Source: Acholeplasmataceae bacterium (lineage in GTDB: Bacteria; Bacillota_I; Bacilli_A; Acholeplasmatales; UBA5453). Taken from it: a stretch of DNA of 46,361 nt. Location: NCBI GenBank assembly GCA_012522345.1, contig JAAYKO010000045.1:1-46361 (forward strand). The letters are read 5' to 3'. A program made the position numbers and the translations under genes. Below the pieces are notes generated by a model that was given only the letters and a program-made list of their open reading frames with translations, was not told where the DNA came from and ran no database searches. How positions within the stretch are numbered: position 1 is the stretch's first letter; every line of letters starts with the position of its first letter. Positions 31,748-46,361 of this stretch are shown one piece after another.

Positions 31748-33280
31748 TTAGTTTTTTTTAGTTTTAGTGCTTTTGCGATTATAACTAGCGATTTCTTCTA
31801 ATGCTTCAATGAAAAACCCTGAAGCGATACTAAAGGTTTTAAACCCCTTTTCTAAAAGCTCTACAAAGCTCTTTTTATGCGATGCGATATCACCACAGAT
31901 TAAACATTCAATCTTATTTCTGGCGCAAAAATCAGCAATCCTTTGTAGTGGTTCTAACAAGAGTTGATAATTGGCAAAGAAATCACCTATGCTATCGCGC
32001 TCAATTCCAAGTAATTCTGCTCCTAAATCATTAGTTCCAACATTGATAAAATCAACCTCTTGAAATTGTTGTAATTCCTCATATGCTTTTTTAGTTTCAA
32101 GCATAATTCCCAATTTAGGTAAATCGCGAATTAAATAGTTTTCTTTTTTATAAGTCTTTAAATAATTTAAAACTCTATCATATTCCTGGCGATCATTGAT
32201 CATTGGAATAATAATCTCTAAGTTTCCATAAACTTCATTAGCAATCAATAAAGCTTGAAGTTGGTTGTGGTAAATCTGCTTTAAGGGGCCATTTAAAGAA
32301 AAATATTCAGCACTGTTTTCTTTTAAGAAATAAGGTCTTTTATCACCGTGAAAGTCAAAAAGTCTAATTTTAACTGGTTTGGGATAAAAAGTTGCTAAAA
32401 GTTTTTGATAAATTTCGATTTGCTTTTCTTTAAAGGGAAACTCATTATTATTTAAAACTAAATGTTCAGTCCTAAATAAGCCAACCCCAGCTATATAAGG
32501 AATTAATTTTGAATTCAGATTAATTAAACTTGATAAATTTAAATATAAATTAAACTCTGGAGGTTGATAATTGGCAAACTGTTTTAGAGATTTTACTGGT
32601 AAAGTCTTTTCATATAAACTGAGTTTTTCTGCGCAAGGATTAATAATTAAACTTTCCTTTTCAGTATTTAAAATTAAAAGTTGATCATTTTCAAGATCTA
32701 ATTCCGGCATTACAACATAAGGAATCCCTTTTTCTTTTGCTAAAATTGCTGCATGAGTTAAATGCCCCCCATCTTTCGCGATAATCGCTTTAACTTTTGG
32801 GGGGAGGTTTAAAACTAAAGAGGGATAAAGATAATCAACAATTAGGATTGTTGGTGCTAAAAATGTTTGTTTGTAGTTATTATCGTACATCACATTGAGC
32901 ATCTGTTCTCGAATATCTACTAAATCATACTGACGCTCTTTTAAGTAGCTATTGCCATTATTGGCAAGTAATTTTATATGATTGTTAACAACACTTTGAT
33001 AAGCATAACCAGCAGTTTCTTTTAAGTCATTAATTCTAGTTAAAACTTCATCGCTGACACTATTATCAGCAATAAAAAGTCGATGGACTCTAATAATATC
33101 TTGAATATCACCTGTAGTAATTTCTTCTAAAGAAAAGAGTTCATCGAGACATTTTTTTTGGGCTTTTAAAAAGATTTGTCGCTCTTTATTTGGATTGTCT
33201 GAGTATTGTTTTAATTTAATTGCGCCTTTAGTTAAGTGATAACTATAACCTATGGCTATTCCTTCATTTATTACTTTCAT
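31748..33280 (-). CDS. Divergent PTS enzyme-I-like / PEP-utilising protein
   Basis: DGGHLTHAAILAKEKGIPYVV (PEP-mobile-domain His motif), GVGLFRTEHLVL, DFHGDKRPYF, INVGTNDLGAELLGIERD, CLICGDIAS; 510 aa, shorter than typical EI. Confidence 0.75.
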   Translation of the reverse strand: MKVINEGIAIGYSYHLTKGAIKLKQYSDNPNKERQIFLKAQKKCLDELFSLEEITTGDIQDIIRVHRLFIADNSVSDEVLTRINDLKETAGYAYQSVVNNHIKLLANNGNSYLKERQYDLVDIREQMLNVMYDNNYKQTFLAPTILIVDYLYPSLVLNLPPKVKAIIAKDGGHLTHAAILAKEKGIPYVVMPELDLENDQLLILNTEKESLIINPCAEKLSLYEKTLPVKSLKQFANYQPPEFNLYLNLSSLINLNSKLIPYIAGVGLFRTEHLVLNNNEFPFKEKQIEIYQKLLATFYPKPVKIRLFDFHGDKRPYFLKENSAEYFSLNGPLKQIYHNQLQALLIANEVYGNLEIIIPMINDRQEYDRVLNYLKTYKKENYLIRDLPKLGIMLETKKAYEELQQFQEVDFINVGTNDLGAELLGIERDSIGDFFANYQLLLEPLQRIADFCARNKIECLICGDIASHKKSFVELLEKGFKTFSIASGFFIEALEEIASYNRKSTKTKKN

Positions 33281-36123: not shown

Positions 36124-36154
36124 AAAAAGAAAGTGCACAAAATCGTGCACTTTC
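36124..36154 (-). terminator. Intrinsic terminator after the shorter CvpA-repeat gene
   Basis: Minus strand GAAAGTGCAC-GATTTT-GTGCACTTTC followed by TTTTTT (10-bp perfect stem). Confidence 0.85.
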
Positions 36155-36160
36155 TAAACA

Positions 36161-39100
36161 TTAATTATAACCTATTTTGCTCGCATCATAGAGAAGCGAA
36201 TTGCTAATTAAATTTTTAATTTGATTAACTGCCGCAATATCACCTAGAACCGGATTATCAAAATCGATATTAGGGTGATTATTTAAAATTACAATTACAT
36301 CAGTTAAGATATCTATCTCATCATCCCATTCTTCTTTAGTTAAGTCTTTTGGATCAACATCAGATCTTAGGCTATTAGCAATTGTTAGTGTTGATTCTGT
36401 AGGGATTCTTGCTAATAACTGGCGGTAAGTATCAGAACGGTTTAGCTGTTTTGCATCAGCTTTAAAATCAGCTGCACTATCGTCATCAAGCGCGGTATAA
36501 TCATAGGACTTAAAGCCTTCTGCAACGACTAAGCCGTCTAAGATGTAAAATAATTCGCCATCTTCTTCTGCTGTTCCCCAATAACTTAAGTCAGCATCAT
36601 TGTAAATCTCTAGATTGAAATTCGCCTCAACATTTAAAAGTTGATTTAGCATCGTACCTAAAGAGGCAGTTAAGATATTAGAAGAAATAATTGCATCATT
36701 GAGTTGTTGCGGTTTTTCAGGATCGCCAACTGCAACAATAAATTGATTATAATTCATTGTTTGATAATCAATGCCATTTTCATTTAAAACTTTAAAGGCA
36801 TCTAATAACGGCACGGTGTCGCCTGGTTTATTGTTGGGGTTTTCATCGATATACCAGTCAAATTCGGTATCATCTTGATATTTCTTTACTAGGTATTTTT
36901 CTAAGTTCCCTGACTCAAATAAGTTTTTAATATGGTTTTCGACTAAAGTTGCTTCTAAGATTTTTGAAGCAAAAACAACTTCCAAGTCAAGATTTAAAAG
37001 CTCATTCACTTCAGGAGCAAAACTATCAAGATTGGAACCAGCCAAGAGAAGATTTAAGCCTTTAAAGAGGTGTTCAACCTCACCTGTTTCTGTGGCGGTT
37101 GATTCATAGACTAATCCTTCATTAATTACCAATTTTCCTGCCAATGGTTCACCTGGGCTTGTTTTGTTTACAAGTAAGTTTTCAATCGCGTTTGAGATTG
37201 TTTTTGAAAGGGCTAAACTATGGATTTCAGCTTCTGATAAATCGTAAATATTACTATCATCTAAACCTTTATTGCTAATTATTCTAATTCCATTAAAAGT
37301 ATTATAAATCTCTGCTTGGGTCCAAAATTCTTTTTCTTCTTGACTATTAATAAAGTCATAAGGTGTTCCTTCTGTAAAGCTATTTATTAATGGTGAGAGG
37401 TTATGAGTGATAATTTTTGAATTTGAGAAATTGGTTGATAGAGCAGTTAACTCTGGTTCAGTTAAATTGCCAAAGCTTTCACTATCTGTTAACTCTAAAT
37501 TAGAAATATCACGAATTGATTTGAAAAAGGCAGTTAGTTCAACTTTTCCTGGGTTTTCTTTAAATGTTACATCATCAGGAACTTCAATTGTAAAGCCTAA
37601 ATCAAAGCCTGCTGCTAAATTATTGATAAAGGTTTCTGTCCCTTCGCTTAAAATATTAGATTTAGAAATATGAGTTGCCAGTTTTTCAATGTTGGGATCT
37701 GTCAGTAAAGCTTGAAAGTCGATATCTTCTTCACCAAACATTTCATTTTCGGCTAAGACTTTAACAAATAATACTAAATTACTTAACTCTGCAGCGTTAA
37801 AGTTTTCATTAACCTTTTCACGAGTTAAGAAATCTTTAAAGTCATCTGGTAAATCTGCAATGGCAGTGTCATAAATAAAGTTGCTAAAGAGTTCACTATT
37901 TTTATATAAAAATGAAAATGCAAAGACAACATCAAACAAATCTTCAACCTGTTCATCTCCGATTGTCACTAAAAACTCATTATCTAAAATTTGCCCAAAA
38001 TCTGCTGTATCGGTTAAGCCAATATCTTTTGCGAATTTATAAATCCCAACAATATTTTTAAAGTCGAGAATTAAATCATCGGGTGTCGGCCTTACTACAT
38101 TAGCGATATCGATATTGTTGTCGAGCATTAATTCTTTTGTTGAGTCCATATTTAAAAAGAGATTAAACAAGATCGGAAGTCCTGTTTTAATTAAACTCAT
38201 TTCGCTTAAGGCATCGATTAATTCCTCAGCTTCTGCTTCACTGAGCGCAAAAACATTATTAAAGACTTCTTCTTGGGCATCAGATTCATTAATTATTTTA
38301 ATTGCTTCAACTAAGATTGATAAGTCATCTTGCAAATTAATCGCTTTGAGTTGAGGCAGAGTTATCTCATCTTCATAACCAGCAATTAAATTATCTTCAG
38401 TAATCATACTGTGAAGAAATTCAGCGCCCACATTTTTGCCAACATTTATTAAGGATGTGCCTTTAAGCCGATTTTGAATTGAGGTCAACTGCTCAGAAGT
38501 TAATCTGAACAAGACTTTTTCATTGAGCTCTAAACTACCTTCATTGGCTTCAACGATGGTCACAAATATTTCGACTAAATTATTGTAGTCTTTTCGAATT
38601 TTAATTGTCTCTTTTGTCCCACTTGATTGAACATCTATTTTCACAAATGAATCGAATAAATACTCATCAAAAGGGGTATCACCAATTGTGAAACTAAAGG
38701 TTTTGCCCACAATTGAATTGCGATAGCCTGTAAAGGATTCTAAAATTGCACTTTCATCATCCATTGCCGCTTGACTGCTGTCTTGAATCATATTTTGAAG
38801 ACTAGATGTGGAAGTAGCAAACGAGGCTAGACCAGCTATTGGAATTGCGAAAAATAAAACTGCCACTACTCCTTTAACAGCCCCGACTAAAGCTCCAAAC
38901 AAACGAAGCTTTTTTGGTTTTTCTCCGGTTGCTTTGTCTTTTTTAGGTTTAACAAAAATCCAAATAATGCTGGGGACAATTTTAAATAATGTTGCGTTAA
39001 GTACTAACAAGACCACTAGCAAAATAATATTTAATAAAAACTTCACCACTCCAAAAGCTAAAGCCATCGTATCAGTTCCTGCTGCAAAAGCTGCTTGTTG

Positions 39101-39394
39101 CTTGGGAAAGATATTGGCTAAGATCTCTGGAAGTGAAGCCCTCAGTGAGGTTACAGTTACATCGATATTGCTAGGTAATATGTTGTTGATAAATCCAAGA
39201 TTAGCATCCAATATTTTTTCGCTTACTAAAGGTATTAAGAAAAAGCCAGCGACTAAAAATATTGCTGAAAAGATGGTAAAAAATAACGATTTATAAAAGC
39301 CTCTAAGTAGGCCAAATAAGATTGAAAGCCCCAATATAGTAAAAAATGTAATATTTAATGTTTGAGCGATTAACTCCGGGGTAAATTCTGGCAT
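36161..39394 (-). CDS. CvpA-like membrane domain fused to a large acidic repeat ectodomain (short paralog, about 1077 aa)
   Basis: Four hydrophobic segments at the N-terminus (MPEFTPELIAQTLNITFFTILGLSILFGLLRGFYKSLFF...), basic loop KPKKDKATGEKPKKLR, then about 850 aa of degenerate helical modules. Start chosen at MPEF (SD GGAGG) rather than the track start at 39424. Confidence 0.75.
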   Translation of the reverse strand: MPEFTPELIAQTLNITFFTILGLSILFGLLRGFYKSLFFTIFSAIFLVAGFFLIPLVSEKILDANLGFINNILPSNIDVTVTSLRASLPEILANIFPKQQAAFAAGTDTMALAFGVVKFLLNIILLVVLLVLNATLFKIVPSIIWIFVKPKKDKATGEKPKKLRLFGALVGAVKGVVAVLFFAIPIAGLASFATSTSSLQNMIQDSSQAAMDDESAILESFTGYRNSIVGKTFSFTIGDTPFDEYLFDSFVKIDVQSSGTKETIKIRKDYNNLVEIFVTIVEANEGSLELNEKVLFRLTSEQLTSIQNRLKGTSLINVGKNVGAEFLHSMITEDNLIAGYEDEITLPQLKAINLQDDLSILVEAIKIINESDAQEEVFNNVFALSEAEAEELIDALSEMSLIKTGLPILFNLFLNMDSTKELMLDNNIDIANVVRPTPDDLILDFKNIVGIYKFAKDIGLTDTADFGQILDNEFLVTIGDEQVEDLFDVVFAFSFLYKNSELFSNFIYDTAIADLPDDFKDFLTREKVNENFNAAELSNLVLFVKVLAENEMFGEEDIDFQALLTDPNIEKLATHISKSNILSEGTETFINNLAAGFDLGFTIEVPDDVTFKENPGKVELTAFFKSIRDISNLELTDSESFGNLTEPELTALSTNFSNSKIITHNLSPLINSFTEGTPYDFINSQEEKEFWTQAEIYNTFNGIRIISNKGLDDSNIYDLSEAEIHSLALSKTISNAIENLLVNKTSPGEPLAGKLVINEGLVYESTATETGEVEHLFKGLNLLLAGSNLDSFAPEVNELLNLDLEVVFASKILEATLVENHIKNLFESGNLEKYLVKKYQDDTEFDWYIDENPNNKPGDTVPLLDAFKVLNENGIDYQTMNYNQFIVAVGDPEKPQQLNDAIISSNILTASLGTMLNQLLNVEANFNLEIYNDADLSYWGTAEEDGELFYILDGLVVAEGFKSYDYTALDDDSAADFKADAKQLNRSDTYRQLLARIPTESTLTIANSLRSDVDPKDLTKEEWDDEIDILTDVIVILNNHPNIDFDNPVLGDIAAVNQIKNLISNSLLYDASKIGYN

Positions 39395-39422
39395 AATATT
39401 CCTCCATTTATTTGTTAAGTTC

Positions 39423-39435
39423 ATTATACTCTATT
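39423..39435 (-). promoter_or_regulatory. -10 region of the short CvpA-repeat gene
   Basis: Minus strand AATAGAGTATAAT, same 13-mer as upstream of the long paralog (46029-46041). Confidence 0.5.
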
Positions 39436-39574: not shown

Positions 39575-39610
39575 AAAGAAAAAACCCCACCTTAACTTTG
39601 TGGGGTTTCT
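39575..39610 (-). terminator. Intrinsic terminator after the long CvpA-repeat gene
   Basis: Minus strand AAACCCCACAAAGTTAAGGTGGGGTTTTTTC. Confidence 0.8.
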
Positions 39611-39632: not shown

Positions 39633-42600
39633 TTAGGGGAAAAGTAAGCCTAAGATGTAAGTTTCAACTTTTCCTGGGTCATAAAGTTTAGAAGTTTCCA
39701 TCTTTAACGCAAGGCTTTGCAACGCCGCTATATCGAATAATGGATTAACACTTTCATTCATAATCAAGATAATATCTGTTAGGATATCGATTTCAGGTTC
39801 CCAATCACCCTGATCAAACGTTTCAGGATCTTTATATTTGTTTTGGTCTGGTGTGTATCTAAATGGTGCTAACTGAATTAATGGTGGTTTATCCAACATC
39901 TTTCTAATTATTGGTCTGAGAGTATCGGACGCATTAATCTTATGAACTTCTCGATTGAAGGCTATTATTGTAACAGCATCCAATTGGTTGAAATGTTGAT
40001 TTTCGAAGCCATCACCAATTGTAAGTGCGTTTAAGATATAGAAGAGTTCGCCTCTATTTTCAACCACTTCACCTGAAGCTGTTCCCCAATAACTTAAGTC
40101 ATCTGGATTTTCTACTTTAACATCAAGATTGCCTTCATTGACAAGCAATTCATTAAGCATCTTATAAAGTGAGGCCTTTAAAATGTTAGATTTTAAAAGT
40201 GCATCATTGACATTTATAATGTTCTCTTCGCTACTGAGCGCTCCTTTAAATGACATATAATTCAGGTTCTCGATATCAATACTTTGCGCATCAAGGCCCT
40301 TAACTGAATCGACTAAGCCAATCGTGTCACCTTTTGGATTATTTTCATTTACATTCATATACCAGTCAAATTCAGTACCATCTTTATATTCATCGACTAA
40401 GTATTTATTCAAGCTCTCTTTAACAAGCGGTTTAATGTGGAGTTCAACTGCAGTAGCTTCTAAAATTTGAGATTTAAATACTTCTTCTAAATCAACTTTT
40501 TTAAGCTCGCTTAATTCTAAGTTCACTTCATCTAAATTTTTGCCATTAAGTGTGCTCTTTAAGCCCATAAATAAGTGTTCAATCTCACCTGTTTTGGTTT
40601 CAGTTGAATGATAAGTTAAGTCATCTGGAATCAAGAGTTTGTTCTCAAGCGGTCCACCAGCTTTTGTCTTATCTTCTAAGAGATTTGAAATTGAGTTTGC
40701 GAAAGTCATCGATAATGCAATTTGATGAATCTCATCATTTTCGAGATTATATAAATCATTGTCATTGACATCTTTATCGGCAAATATCTTAACCCCTTTG
40801 AAAGTATTTTCAATTTCTTTTTGACTCCAATAATCAGCTGGATCTTCAGCTTCACTAACACTAACGAAGTCATATGAAGTACCTTTTGTAAGTGAGTTAG
40901 TAATACCTGTTAAGTTATGAGTAATTACTTTTGAACTTGAGAAGTTTTCACTCATTGTTACAATGTTTTCATCTTCTAAAGCTTTAAATGATTCTTTCGA
41001 ACTTATATTATACAACGTAATATCTCTAAATGATTTGAACAGTCCATTAAGTTCAGTTTCTCCTGCTTCACCTTCATAGCTGATGCCAGCTGGTTGAGCA
41101 ATCTCAAAACCATATTTAGCTTCACTATCATCTGTAAATGAATCAATAATCGTTGGCAAGTTATGAGAGACAACTTTTGAACTCGACAAGTTTTTACTCA
41201 TTGGTTCAATATCAGTTTCATCATCTAAATTTTTAAATGAATCCATATCTTCAATATTGCTTAAATCTCGCAAGGATTTAAATAAACTATTGAGTTCAGA
41301 TTCACCAGGCTCACCGTAAAACTCAACTTCAGTTGGAACTTCAATTTGATAATCGTCACCTTCTTTAGTAACAGATTCAATCATTGTTGGGATATTATGG
41401 CTAATTACTTGTGAACTTGAGAAATGTTTACTCATCGGCTTAATATCAGTTTCATCATCTAAGGTCTTAAATGAATTTAAGCCACCACTTAATTTATCGA
41501 CATGTTTTAATGATTTAAATAAAGCATTGAGTTCTCGTTCTCCTTCTTCACCTTCATAACTGATGCCATCAGGTTGAACAATCTCAAAACCATATTTGGC
41601 TTCACTATCATCTGTAAATGAATCAAGAATCGTCGGTAAGTTATGGGAGACAACTTTTGAACTCGATAGGTTTTTACTCATTGGTTCAATATCAGCTTCA
41701 TCATCTAAAGCCTTAAATGAATCCATATCTTCAATATTACTTAAATCTCTTAATGATTTAAATAAAGCAGTAAGTTCAGTCTCACCAGGCTCACCGTAAA
41801 ACTCAACTTCAGCTGGAACTTCAATTTGATAATCGTCACCTTCTTTAGTAACGGATTCAATCATTGTTGGGATATTGCCACTAATTACTTGTGAACTTGA
41901 GAAATGTTTACTCATCGGCTTAATATCTTCTTCATCGTCTAAAGTCTTAAATGAATTTAAACCACCACTTAATTTATCGACGTGCTTTAAAGACTTAAAT
42001 AAAGCGTTGAGTTCAATCTCACCTGCTTCACCTTCATAGCTAATGCCAGCTGGCTGAGTAATCTCAAAACCATATTTGGCTTCACTATCATCTGTAAATG
42101 AATCAATAATTGAAGGTAGATTATGCGCAACAATTTTTGAACTCGATAAGTTTTTACTCATCGGCTCAATGTCTTCTTCATCGTCTAAAGCTTTAAACGA
42201 ATCCATATCTTCAATATTACTTAAATCTCTTAATGATTTAAATAAAGCAGTAAGTTCAGTCTCACCAGGCTCACCATAAAATTCAACTTCAGCTGGAACT
42301 TCAATTTGATAATCATCACCCTGTTTTGTAACTGATTCAATTATTGCAGGAAGATTATGACTTATTACTCGTGAAGTTGAGAAGTTTTTGCTCATTGGTT
42401 CAATGTCTTCTTCATCATTTAAAACCTTAAATGAATTTAAGCCGTCATCAAATTTATCAACATCTTTTAATGACTTAAATAAAGCAGAGAGTTCAATCTT
42501 TCCAGGTTCACCATAAAACTCAGTTGTTTCTGGTACTTCAATTGTAAAACTCAAATTTTCTTCTTCATTAATCGATTCAATTATTCCTGGAATATTATGA

Positions 42601-45600
42601 GATACAACTTTAGAATTGGCAAAGTTTTCACTCATTGTCTCAATTTCTGGATTAGTCATACTCTTAATTGAATCGAGACCACCCTCAAATCTATCAATAT
42701 CTTTTAAAGACTTAAATAAAGCGTTGAGTTCAGTCTCGCCAGGTTCACCATAAAACTCAGCATTTTCTGGAACTTCAATCGCAAATTTTAAATCTACTTC
42801 ATCATTAATTGAATCAATTATTCCTGGAATATTATGAGATACAACTTTCGAGCTGGCAAAGTTTTCACTCATTGTCTCAATTTCAGGGTTAGTCATTCCC
42901 TTAATTGAATCGAGGCCACCCTCAAATTTATCAATATCTTTTAAAGATTTAAATAAAGCATTGAGTTCAACTTCGCCTTCATTACCATAAAATGTTAAAT
43001 CTTCTGGAACTTCAATCGCAAATTTTAAATCTACTTCATCATTAATTGAATCAATTATTCCTGGAATATTATGAGATACAACTTTCGAGCTTGAAAAGTT
43101 TTCACTCATTGTCTCAATTTCTAGATTAGTCATACTCTTAATTGAATCGAGACCTCCCTCAAATTTATCAATATCTTTTAATGATTTAAACAAGGCGTTG
43201 AGTTCGACCTCACCAGGCTCACCATAAAATGTTAAATCTTCCGGAACTTCTATCGTAAATCCAAGTTCTTGTTCTTCGCTAAGTGAATCGATTATTCCCG
43301 AAATATTATGAGCTACAATTCGTGATTTTGAGAAATTTTCGCTAATCGCTTCGATTTCTGGATTACTCATCGCTTTTAAAGCATCCAAGCCATCTTTAAA
43401 CTTGTCAATATCTTTAAGTGCTTTAAATAAAGCATTGAGTTCAACTTCGCCTTCATTACCATAAAATATTAAATCTTCAGGAACTTCTATCGTAAATCCA
43501 ATCTCTTGATTGTCGCCTAAACTATTAATTAAAATTGGAATGTTATGACTAATCACCTTTGAACTTGAGAAGTTTAAAGCCATTTCAGCAATTTGTTCGT
43601 TAGTTAAATCGCCAAAGATATCCTCCGAATCTAAAAAGTTATAATCGACAATATTTTTAGCAGAATAGAGAATCGCTTTTAATTCATCTTCTCCGCCATC
43701 TTCGTATTTAAAACTAATATCTTCAGGTAATTCTATTGTGAGAGTATCGCTAAAGCTATTGAACATACTTTCTAAAATATTGCCGATATTAGAGCTTAAA
43801 GTGTTAGAGCTTGAAACTGAAAGAGCGAGTTTATCAATCTTGTCCTCAACTAAAAAGCTACTGAAATCATCCTCTTCAATTCCCGCTTCAATAATGACAT
43901 TAATTCCACTTAATGTGTGATAGATTTCTGTCTTAGTCCAAAACTCAGCAGTTTCATTACTTTCAAATTCAAATTCTTGTTCTTTTAACATTGTGTTAAT
44001 TAAATTAGATAAGTTATGGGTGATTAGTTTAGAAGCAGAGAAATTGCTTGAAATATCATCGATCTGTTCTTCTGTAAAAGCTGTGAAGCTTTCTACAGAT
44101 TCTAAAAGTCCTAAATCAACAATATTTTTAGCTGAATTTAAAACTGCGATTAATTCGGTTTTTCCTGCTTCACCTTTAAAGGTTAAATCTTCGGGAACAA
44201 CCAGTTCAAAGTCAACTTCATCAGCACCGATAAACATATCGATAAAGAAAATTGTGCCATCACTTAAAAGATCTGATTTTGAAATATAAGTTGAAAGTTT
44301 TTCAATTGAAGTTTCAGAAAACAATTTATCATAATTAATATTATCTTCAAACATCTCAGCTTCAGCTAAAACTTTCGCCAGTAAAACAACATTACCGAGT
44401 TCGGCAGCGTTAAAGTTATCACTAATTCTTTCTTTAGTTAAAAAGTCTTTTAATTCATCTGGTAAATCATCAATTACCATATCGTGAACAACGGTTGCGA
44501 AAAATTCATTGTTGTTGTATAAAAAGGAAAAGGCAAATACCGTTTCAAATAAATCTGTTATATTTTTATCTTCTAAAGAAACAAAAAAGTCAATAGAACC
44601 TGCATTTTCAAAGTCATCCACTGAGGTAAAGCCAACCTCTTTGGCTAAAGCATAAATATTGACAATATTTTTAAAGTCAGCGATTAATTCATCGGCATCA
44701 GGTCTAACAATATCATTGATATCAATATCATTTTCAAGCATTAAGTCTTTCATTTCTTCCATTTCAAAGAAGAAATTTACCGCGACGGGTAAGCCAATTT
44801 TTAAAGTTTCTAATTCTGCCAATTTATTAATTAAGTTTTCAGCTTCAATTTCTGTTAAAGCGAAAACATTTTCAAATAATTCTTCTTTTGCTTCTGATTG
44901 ATTAATAATTTTCACTGCTCCAATTAAGGTGCTAATATCTTTTTTCAAATCAATCGCTTTAATTAGTTCTAAAGTAATATATTCTTCATAACCTTCAAGA
45001 TAGTCATCTTTTAACATCTCAAAGGCTATTTCTGCACCGACATTTTTGGCGACATTAATAATATTACTTTTGTTGAGATTATTTTGGATTAAATCAATTT
45101 GTTCAGCGGTTAATTTAAATAAAATGTTTTGATCAAATTCAAGACTTCCTTCATTGGCATCTACGACTTCTGCAAAAATCTCAGCTATACCAGCAAATTC
45201 TTGGCGGAGTTTAAGCGAGTCAACTTTATCATCAGTCTTAACATCAATCTTTACAAATGCATCAAATAAATATTCATCAAAGTTAACATCGTCAACTGTA
45301 AAGCTATACAATCTTCCCAACAATGAGGTGCGGTAACCTTGAAACGCTTCTAAAATCGCTGCCTCATCATCAAGAGCGGCTTGACTATCAAATTCAATCG
45401 CATCTTGTAAAATAAAAGCTGAATTTGAAAAAGAAGCTAACCCAGCGATTGGAATTCCGATAATCATCGCGGCAACAAATCCTTTGACTAAACCAACAAC
45501 GCCACCTAAAATACGATGTTTTTTAGGTTTTTTATCTGTTTTCTTATTTTTCTTAGGGCGAATAAATAACCAAATAATGCCTGTGATAATTTTAAAGATA

Positions 45601-45998
45601 GTCGCATTTAACAATAAAAGTACGATTAACAAGACAATACTAAAAACAAATTTCACTACCCCAAACACTAAAGCCATCGTATCCGTTCCAGCAACAAAAA
45701 CAGCTGCTTGATTGGGGAGTAAATTGGCGAGTATCTCTGGTAGTGAAACCCTCAATGTTGAAATATGATATTCGCTTGGTAAAAACTGGTTGAGCATTGA
45801 AAAATTGAAATCTAACATCATCTCACTAATCATTGGAATAAGAAAAAAACCAACAACTAAAAAAATTGTCGATAAGATTGTCGAAAACAATGATTTATAT
45901 AATCCTCTAAGCAAACCTGTTAAAATCGATGTCCCGATAATAACGAAAAAAGTTATATTTAATGTTTGCTCAATTAATTGGGGTGTAAATTCTGGCAT
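39633..45998 (-). CDS. CvpA-like membrane domain fused to a giant tandem-repeat ectodomain (long paralog, 2121 aa)
   Basis: N-terminus MPEFTPQLIEQTLNITFFVIIGTSILTGLLRGLYKSLF..., basic loop RPKKNKKTDKKPKKHR, four TM segments, then a long region with about 11 near-identical units of about 80 aa. SD GGAGG upstream. Confidence 0.8.
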   Translation of the reverse strand: MPEFTPQLIEQTLNITFFVIIGTSILTGLLRGLYKSLFSTILSTIFLVVGFFLIPMISEMMLDFNFSMLNQFLPSEYHISTLRVSLPEILANLLPNQAAVFVAGTDTMALVFGVVKFVFSIVLLIVLLLLNATIFKIITGIIWLFIRPKKNKKTDKKPKKHRILGGVVGLVKGFVAAMIIGIPIAGLASFSNSAFILQDAIEFDSQAALDDEAAILEAFQGYRTSLLGRLYSFTVDDVNFDEYLFDAFVKIDVKTDDKVDSLKLRQEFAGIAEIFAEVVDANEGSLEFDQNILFKLTAEQIDLIQNNLNKSNIINVAKNVGAEIAFEMLKDDYLEGYEEYITLELIKAIDLKKDISTLIGAVKIINQSEAKEELFENVFALTEIEAENLINKLAELETLKIGLPVAVNFFFEMEEMKDLMLENDIDINDIVRPDADELIADFKNIVNIYALAKEVGFTSVDDFENAGSIDFFVSLEDKNITDLFETVFAFSFLYNNNEFFATVVHDMVIDDLPDELKDFLTKERISDNFNAAELGNVVLLAKVLAEAEMFEDNINYDKLFSETSIEKLSTYISKSDLLSDGTIFFIDMFIGADEVDFELVVPEDLTFKGEAGKTELIAVLNSAKNIVDLGLLESVESFTAFTEEQIDDISSNFSASKLITHNLSNLINTMLKEQEFEFESNETAEFWTKTEIYHTLSGINVIIEAGIEEDDFSSFLVEDKIDKLALSVSSSNTLSSNIGNILESMFNSFSDTLTIELPEDISFKYEDGGEDELKAILYSAKNIVDYNFLDSEDIFGDLTNEQIAEMALNFSSSKVISHNIPILINSLGDNQEIGFTIEVPEDLIFYGNEGEVELNALFKALKDIDKFKDGLDALKAMSNPEIEAISENFSKSRIVAHNISGIIDSLSEEQELGFTIEVPEDLTFYGEPGEVELNALFKSLKDIDKFEGGLDSIKSMTNLEIETMSENFSSSKVVSHNIPGIIDSINDEVDLKFAIEVPEDLTFYGNEGEVELNALFKSLKDIDKFEGGLDSIKGMTNPEIETMSENFASSKVVSHNIPGIIDSINDEVDLKFAIEVPENAEFYGEPGETELNALFKSLKDIDRFEGGLDSIKSMTNPEIETMSENFANSKVVSHNIPGIIESINEEENLSFTIEVPETTEFYGEPGKIELSALFKSLKDVDKFDDGLNSFKVLNDEEDIEPMSKNFSTSRVISHNLPAIIESVTKQGDDYQIEVPAEVEFYGEPGETELTALFKSLRDLSNIEDMDSFKALDDEEDIEPMSKNLSSSKIVAHNLPSIIDSFTDDSEAKYGFEITQPAGISYEGEAGEIELNALFKSLKHVDKLSGGLNSFKTLDDEEDIKPMSKHFSSSQVISGNIPTMIESVTKEGDDYQIEVPAEVEFYGEPGETELTALFKSLRDLSNIEDMDSFKALDDEADIEPMSKNLSSSKVVSHNLPTILDSFTDDSEAKYGFEIVQPDGISYEGEEGERELNALFKSLKHVDKLSGGLNSFKTLDDETDIKPMSKHFSSSQVISHNIPTMIESVTKEGDDYQIEVPTEVEFYGEPGESELNSLFKSLRDLSNIEDMDSFKNLDDETDIEPMSKNLSSSKVVSHNLPTIIDSFTDDSEAKYGFEIAQPAGISYEGEAGETELNGLFKSFRDITLYNISSKESFKALEDENIVTMSENFSSSKVITHNLTGITNSLTKGTSYDFVSVSEAEDPADYWSQKEIENTFKGVKIFADKDVNDNDLYNLENDEIHQIALSMTFANSISNLLEDKTKAGGPLENKLLIPDDLTYHSTETKTGEIEHLFMGLKSTLNGKNLDEVNLELSELKKVDLEEVFKSQILEATAVELHIKPLVKESLNKYLVDEYKDGTEFDWYMNVNENNPKGDTIGLVDSVKGLDAQSIDIENLNYMSFKGALSSEENIINVNDALLKSNILKASLYKMLNELLVNEGNLDVKVENPDDLSYWGTASGEVVENRGELFYILNALTIGDGFENQHFNQLDAVTIIAFNREVHKINASDTLRPIIRKMLDKPPLIQLAPFRYTPDQNKYKDPETFDQGDWEPEIDILTDIILIMNESVNPLFDIAALQSLALKMETSKLYDPGKVETYILGLLFP
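40868..43499 (-). repeat. About 11 tandem units (237-243 bp, 79-81 aa) inside the long CvpA-repeat gene
   Basis: Units of the form (F/Y)xIEVPxxxxFYGEPGExELNALFKSLKDxxxxxxxxxSxKxxxxxxIExMSxNFSSSKVVSHNxPxIIxSxxxx read by eye from the translation. Confidence 0.9.
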
Positions 45999-46028
45999 TA
46001 TTTTACCTCCATTGTATTGCTTATTATG

Positions 46029-46041
46029 ATTATACTCTATT
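46029..46041 (-). promoter_or_regulatory. -10 region of the long CvpA-repeat gene
   Basis: Minus strand AATAGAGTATAAT; followed about 30 nt later by ATG with SD GGAGG. Confidence 0.5.
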
Positions 46042-46291
46042 AATTGTCAATAATAAACTAGTTTTATTATTTTTCCAAATTAAACTTGTACTCTAAGTTT
46101 CATTTAGCCTTATTATTAGGCTCTATTTTTAAAATCTAAAAAAGACTGAGAAAATAACCCTCACATCAAGCACACAAAAGGACCAAGTAGATCTTTTATT
46201 TCGCATTTCCTATAACTAAAATATACTTAAACTTTGATGAATACAAAGAAATCCGGTTTTCACCGTTGGAACGGATTTCAACCCCTTATCG

Positions 46292-46331
46292 CAAAAAACT
46301 GCCTGTTTTCTCAAACTAGCAGTTCTTTTTT
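46292..46331. terminator. Bidirectional-looking intrinsic terminator
   Basis: AAAAAACTGC-CT-GTTT-TCTC-AAAC-TA-GCAGTTCTTTTTTT: AACTGC/GCAGTT plus inner GTTT/AAAC stem, A-run and T-run flanks. Confidence 0.65.
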
Positions 46332-46361
46332 TAGTGAATAGTGTTAATTTTTGACGTTTAC

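Follow-up and report, generated by a model that had tools for sequence, protein, structure and literature searches.

A CvpA-like membrane module joined to a giant acidic helical-repeat region in an Acholeplasmataceae bacterium

Two adjacent giant-protein genes

The window is a 46,361-nucleotide contig from a relative of the wall-less Acholeplasma, and it carries two adjacent genes for giant proteins, A and B (Table 1). Gene A is a single open frame of 2121 aa. The first-pass annotation had already delimited this frame, and its strand is corrected here to minus. The gene appears genuine, since GGAGG (46006-46010) precedes its ATG, promoter-like TTGACA/CATAAT elements lie upstream, and the differences among its repeat copies are mainly synonymous. 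The contig ends only 363 bases beyond gene A (45999-46361), so anything upstream of the gene pair lies outside view.

Gene B, which was absent from the first-pass annotation, encodes a 1077-aa tandem paralogue that aligns to gene A residues 1-734 (53%) and 1583-2111 (41%); direct comparison of the two genes places the recent array of gene A in A only. The start at 39394 is favoured over 39424 because it has its own GGAGG (39401-39405), and the mechanically called start at 39424 (36161-39424) is probably wrong. A hairpin recognised by eye between the two genes, which is missing from the list of the terminator scan, and a second hairpin after gene B suggest that A and B are probably separate transcription units.

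Table 1. Coordinates of the features of genes A and B in the window
Feature	Position	Strand	Basis
Gene A, 2121 aa: CvpA-like membrane module, then giant acidic helical-repeat region	39633..45998	-	
Gene A promoter-like TTGACA-16-CATAAT (46050-46023) and ribosome-binding GGAGG (46010-46006)	46006..46050	-	
CvpA-like four-helix membrane module, residues 1-205	45384..45998	-	hydropathy, sub-threshold PF02674, family profile
Basic loop RGLYKS after TM1, residues 31-36, predicted cytoplasmic	45891..45908	-	
Basic loop RPKKNKKTDKKPKKHR between TM3 and TM4, residues 147-162, predicted cytoplasmic	45513..45560	-	
Membrane-proximal ectodomain, residues 206-532	44403..45383	-	alignments A2, A3
Helical repeat region, residues 533-1714, 15 units, most 79-81 aa	40857..44402	-	unit HMM, AlphaFold
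Close-copy array, residues 772-1648, 11 units of 79-81 aa	41055..43685	-	TRF, units, A/B comparison, dN/dS
C-terminal region, residues 1715-2121, common to paralogue B, two further diverged units	39636..40856	-	
Terminator-like hairpin AACCCCAC...GTGGGGTT and T run, between A and B	39578..39608	-	by eye
Gene B, 1077 aa, tandem paralogue lacking the recent array	36161..39394	-	A/B comparison, AlphaFold
Terminator-like 12-bp hairpin with T tail, after gene B	36128..36155	-	

The membrane module and its orientation

Hydropathy confines the hydrophobic segments of gene A to residues 8-197, and the remainder is hydrophilic and acidic (D+E 20.4%, net charge -241). Hydrophobic segments, two basic loops, and an acidic remainder had all been described in the first-pass annotation, and all are seen. 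Five residues are invariant across 20 homologues (G28, G32, K35, G165, and G169), the last two of which come after the TM3-TM4 basic loop.

Sequence comparison supports the module of A and B as a remote homologue of CvpA. The Pfam model PF02674 (Colicin V production protein) has a curated cut-off of 29.3 bits, and an HMM search of the gene A N-terminus gave a match that was only sub-threshold (17.8 bits for residues 1-233; 10.8 bits for the whole protein), while gene B also fell under the cut-off at 14.0 bits. Weak PF02674 matches are present in 18 of 20 family N-termini (best 2.6e-6), and hhalign aligned the family profile with 13 small CvpA proteins of the class at a probability of 95.9% and an E-value of 5e-9. 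Two sibling giants exceed the cut-off (G189, 1619 aa, 30.5 bits; G272, 1176 aa, 30.3 bits in frame), and both are also matched by the family N-terminal profile. The CvpA-type anchor proposed in the first-pass annotation thus holds as remote homology, but gene A itself scores below the Pfam cut-off, and the module is called CvpA-like rather than filed under PF02674.

The likeness to the CvpA family includes the N-terminal four-helix module, with four transmembrane helices in hydropathy plots and in the low-confidence helices of the gene B model, a G-x3-G-x2-K motif after TM1, and G-x3-G before TM4. The difference is one of size: the best-scoring CvpA frames of the class span about 160-300 aa, compared with 1077 and 2121 aa here. 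The functions known for CvpA are deoxycholate resistance and colicin V export. Elsewhere in the genome, a PF02674 match (C87, 19.5 bits) falls in a 185-aa frame beside a PadR-like regulator, with a product that does not resemble CvpA. This match is unconvincing, which leaves A and B as the only credible CvpA-like proteins found in the genome.

The mycobacterial membrane serine protease MarP (Rv3671c) provides a precedent, as its four N-terminal transmembrane helices are followed by a C-terminal domain in the periplasm (PMC4992679). The NCBIfam MarP model matches weakly and only in the membrane part (residues 102-189), and Pfam and NCBIfam searches gave no chymotrypsin-type, MarP-like protease domain in A or B. 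MarP and A/B therefore share the four N-terminal helices and a C-terminal domain outside the membrane, predicted as such for A and B, whereas the protease domain of MarP is replaced in A and B by a giant helical-repeat ectodomain.

The module could itself be the working part, acting as a small transporter or in response to stress or tension, with the giant ectodomain serving as its regulator or sensor rather than as an adhesin. Its five invariant residues perhaps exceed the needs of a passive anchor, most genomes carry one family gene, and the CvpA of E. coli, which contributes to deoxycholate resistance, is reported to resemble in part both MFS transporters and small-conductance mechanosensitive channels (PMC6705877). 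We regard this explanation as somewhat unlikely, because typical CvpA proteins do not need an ectodomain of this kind, no residue with a transport role is known, and helix packing would equally account for the conserved glycines.

Both ends of the gene A protein were placed outside the membrane in the first-pass annotation, and the loop charges of 20 homologues agree. Counted by loop, K+R reaches 36.7 per 100 residues after TM1 and 36.1 between TM3 and TM4, whereas the N-terminus has 1.8, the long loop 5.5, and the stretch after TM4 6.0. Cysteine exclusion in Firmicutes extends somewhat to cytoplasmic proteins. It is a tendency of exported Firmicutes proteins (PMC9974433), and A and B together contain no cysteine in 3,208 aa where about 14 would be expected from the other proteins of the window (P about 6e-7). 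Giants of other genera are also cysteine-poor, and several of 1,175-4,446 aa have none. From the charge bias under the positive-inside rule, which the absence of cysteine also favours, we infer that both ends lie outside.

The opposite arrangement, in which the repeats form a membrane-attached intracellular scaffold, is quite improbable. TM3 belongs to a hydrophobic run of about 45 residues, which could be read as two spans; that reading would flip the C-terminus, but a strongly basic loop would then lie outside. HEAT/ARM-type helical solenoids are mostly intracellular scaffolds, and the generic, non-significant Foldseek matches are to such proteins; against this stand the charge distribution, the lack of cysteine, and the MarP precedent. 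A cytoplasmic placement of the repeats, which the first-pass annotation had named as a possible outcome, is thus at odds with both sequence signals.

Repeats, predicted structure, and the wider family

The remainder of gene A contains repeats, as the first-pass annotation stated, but not one uniform repeat, since the recent array is confined to residues 772-1648. TRF reports a 237-bp unit plus a double unit of 474-480 bp, and this two-unit period is present in part of the array. An HMM built from the array units detects diverged copies on either side, and when iterated it finds 17 units in gene A (within residues 533-1972); across the family it recognises 271 units, spread over 23 of the 25 proteins. 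It claims no units in residues 206-532, which are kept between genera. The model gave no matches in shuffled sequences, reversed sequences, or 56 unrelated proteins; its weakest members (2-6 units in 3,884-4,446 aa) need caution because iteration can drift. Matches of gene A to Pfam RXLR_WY, Big_8, and MGMT_N and to PADLOC DrmC were rejected as repeat artefacts, as their scores are summed over repeats and no single stretch is significant.

The repeat copies differ with dN/dS of 0.08-0.30 and dS of 0.33 or more, which indicates that the array is coding and under purifying selection. The unit copy number rests on a draft assembly. It is very improbable that the array is a recent amplification or an assembly inflation with no specific role: the middle copies are close (up to 92% identical in DNA) and missing from paralogue B, and the window is a draft contig, but dN/dS between units is low, the dS values make the copies old enough to separate in assembly, the open frame spans 6.4 kb, and the N-terminal module comes with long frames in most genera of the order.

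AlphaFold confidently models six gene A units as an all-helical solenoid (pLDDT 86.4, pTM 0.81), a prediction in favour of the solenoid suggested in the first-pass annotation. For gene B, the model places long helices at 6-33, 37-63, 108-145, and 164-203 in a membrane part of low confidence (pLDDT about 30-63), followed past residue 270 by an ectodomain that is largely helical, with pLDDT mostly 70-94. Foldseek searches of the PDB returned no significant match for the gene A repeats (best E 0.011, TM-score 0.15) or for gene B (best E 0.07), including among solved helical-repeat folds such as HEAT, ARM, and PUF, and a PDB sequence search found nothing credible.

In the order Acholeplasmatales, the N-terminal profile matches 103 of 150 genomes, with 26 of 28 genera represented; in the class, it matches 130 of 296 genomes, with 75 of 166 genera represented. 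Scoring divided the 130 class matches into 114 giants and 16 small or weak proteins. Where the nearest homologues lie on named contigs, the labels are Acholeplasmatales, Acholeplasmataceae, or Paracholeplasma vituli; the homologue of P. vituli, a cultured relative, has 1578 aa (L069). No match was found in genus g20, whose genomes (0.5-0.9 Mb) are Phytoplasma-like in size, and the probably Mycoplasma- or Spiroplasma-like families, those with in-frame TGA, have small frames only and no giants.

Open frames of the class matches reach 6,056 aa; the longest relative (G258:C7, L103) has the same N-terminal module as A and B. In L064, positions 3-752 hold a fragment from the C-terminus of a second giant, immediately upstream of another member of the family, which indicates that a related genus has tandem copies too.

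No Pfam or NCBIfam model names the A and B proteins, so the well-annotated existing family that the first-pass annotation had allowed for is not found in either resource, and a literature search, mostly outside subscription journals, found nothing on these giants. The family is widespread yet undescribed. The architecture was called unusual in the first-pass annotation, which holds insofar as no named model covers it; the design is repeated across most genera of the order and many of the class, so the family is not a one-off. It combines a known CvpA-like module with a new giant partner that recurs.

A candidate surface rod

The architecture of A and B is likely as described, and the outward orientation and rod shape that we infer lead to a candidate role. 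Residues 1-205 would insert as four membrane helices with both ends outside, serving as signal-anchor and foot, and the remainder would exit on the outer face of the membrane as a long acidic rod of stacked helices. Conserved membrane-proximal and distal parts would flank a variable middle, where tandem duplication of units would set the length of the rod.

Such a length-tunable acidic rod might space or attach the cell, working like staphylococcal Embp/Ebh, an elongated rod of repetitive helical units (PMC7587433). The likeness consists of a giant surface protein with repetitive helical units; neither the sequences nor the anchors are related. Embp carries FIVAR/GA repeats together with a YSIRK export signal and, at its C-terminus, a membrane region, whereas Pfam and NCBIfam searches found no FIVAR/GA repeats or YSIRK signal in A or B. 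The sequences of A and B name no ligand, partner, or adhesive site, and adhesion or spacing is the leading hypothesis for the job of the rod. We consider a surface-rod function about evenly balanced, and we lean slightly towards the whole explanation, a surface-exposed, length-variable helical rod on a CvpA-like foot with an adhesive or mechanical job.

Cells that lack a wall need other ways to organise their surface, and little is known of the surface proteins in the less studied mycoplasma relatives. The transpeptidase of cell-wall synthesis (PF00905) was used as a wall marker, and no candidate was found in the genome of the window. This genome is 88.8% complete, which makes the absence of wall genes provisional; with no such transpeptidase, the rod would face the environment directly. 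Across the class, PF00905 is absent more often from giant carriers (81 of 114) than from non-carriers (82 of 182; p 1.4e-5, kinship ignored). The giants are not a strict substitute for a wall, because 33 of the 114 carriers have PF00905, and probably a wall, and 82 genomes have neither; the relationship is an association and not a rule.

On a broader view, the giants would be a class-wide, undescribed envelope component in which a CvpA-derived anchor and a new helical-repeat fold form a length-tunable, load-bearing surface layer, favoured in wall-less lineages and discarded by host-restricted reducers (phytoplasma-like and mycoplasma-like). Taken as a whole, this proposal is unlikely. Giant membrane proteins recur on an anchor that is recognisable yet unexpected, although a minority of the matches are small or weak, and this suggests that CvpA modules, themselves of unsettled function, can be the foot of large extracytoplasmic structures.

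The neighbourhood yields no functional partner, since the DegV-ROK-PTS-ribosomal gene order is common only to near genera (L063, partly L064) and differs in Paracholeplasma. At 31748-33280, a short 510-aa PTS enzyme I-like protein lies beside a ROK-type sugar kinase and a DegV-like protein, with a neighbour order that matches L063 and in part L064.
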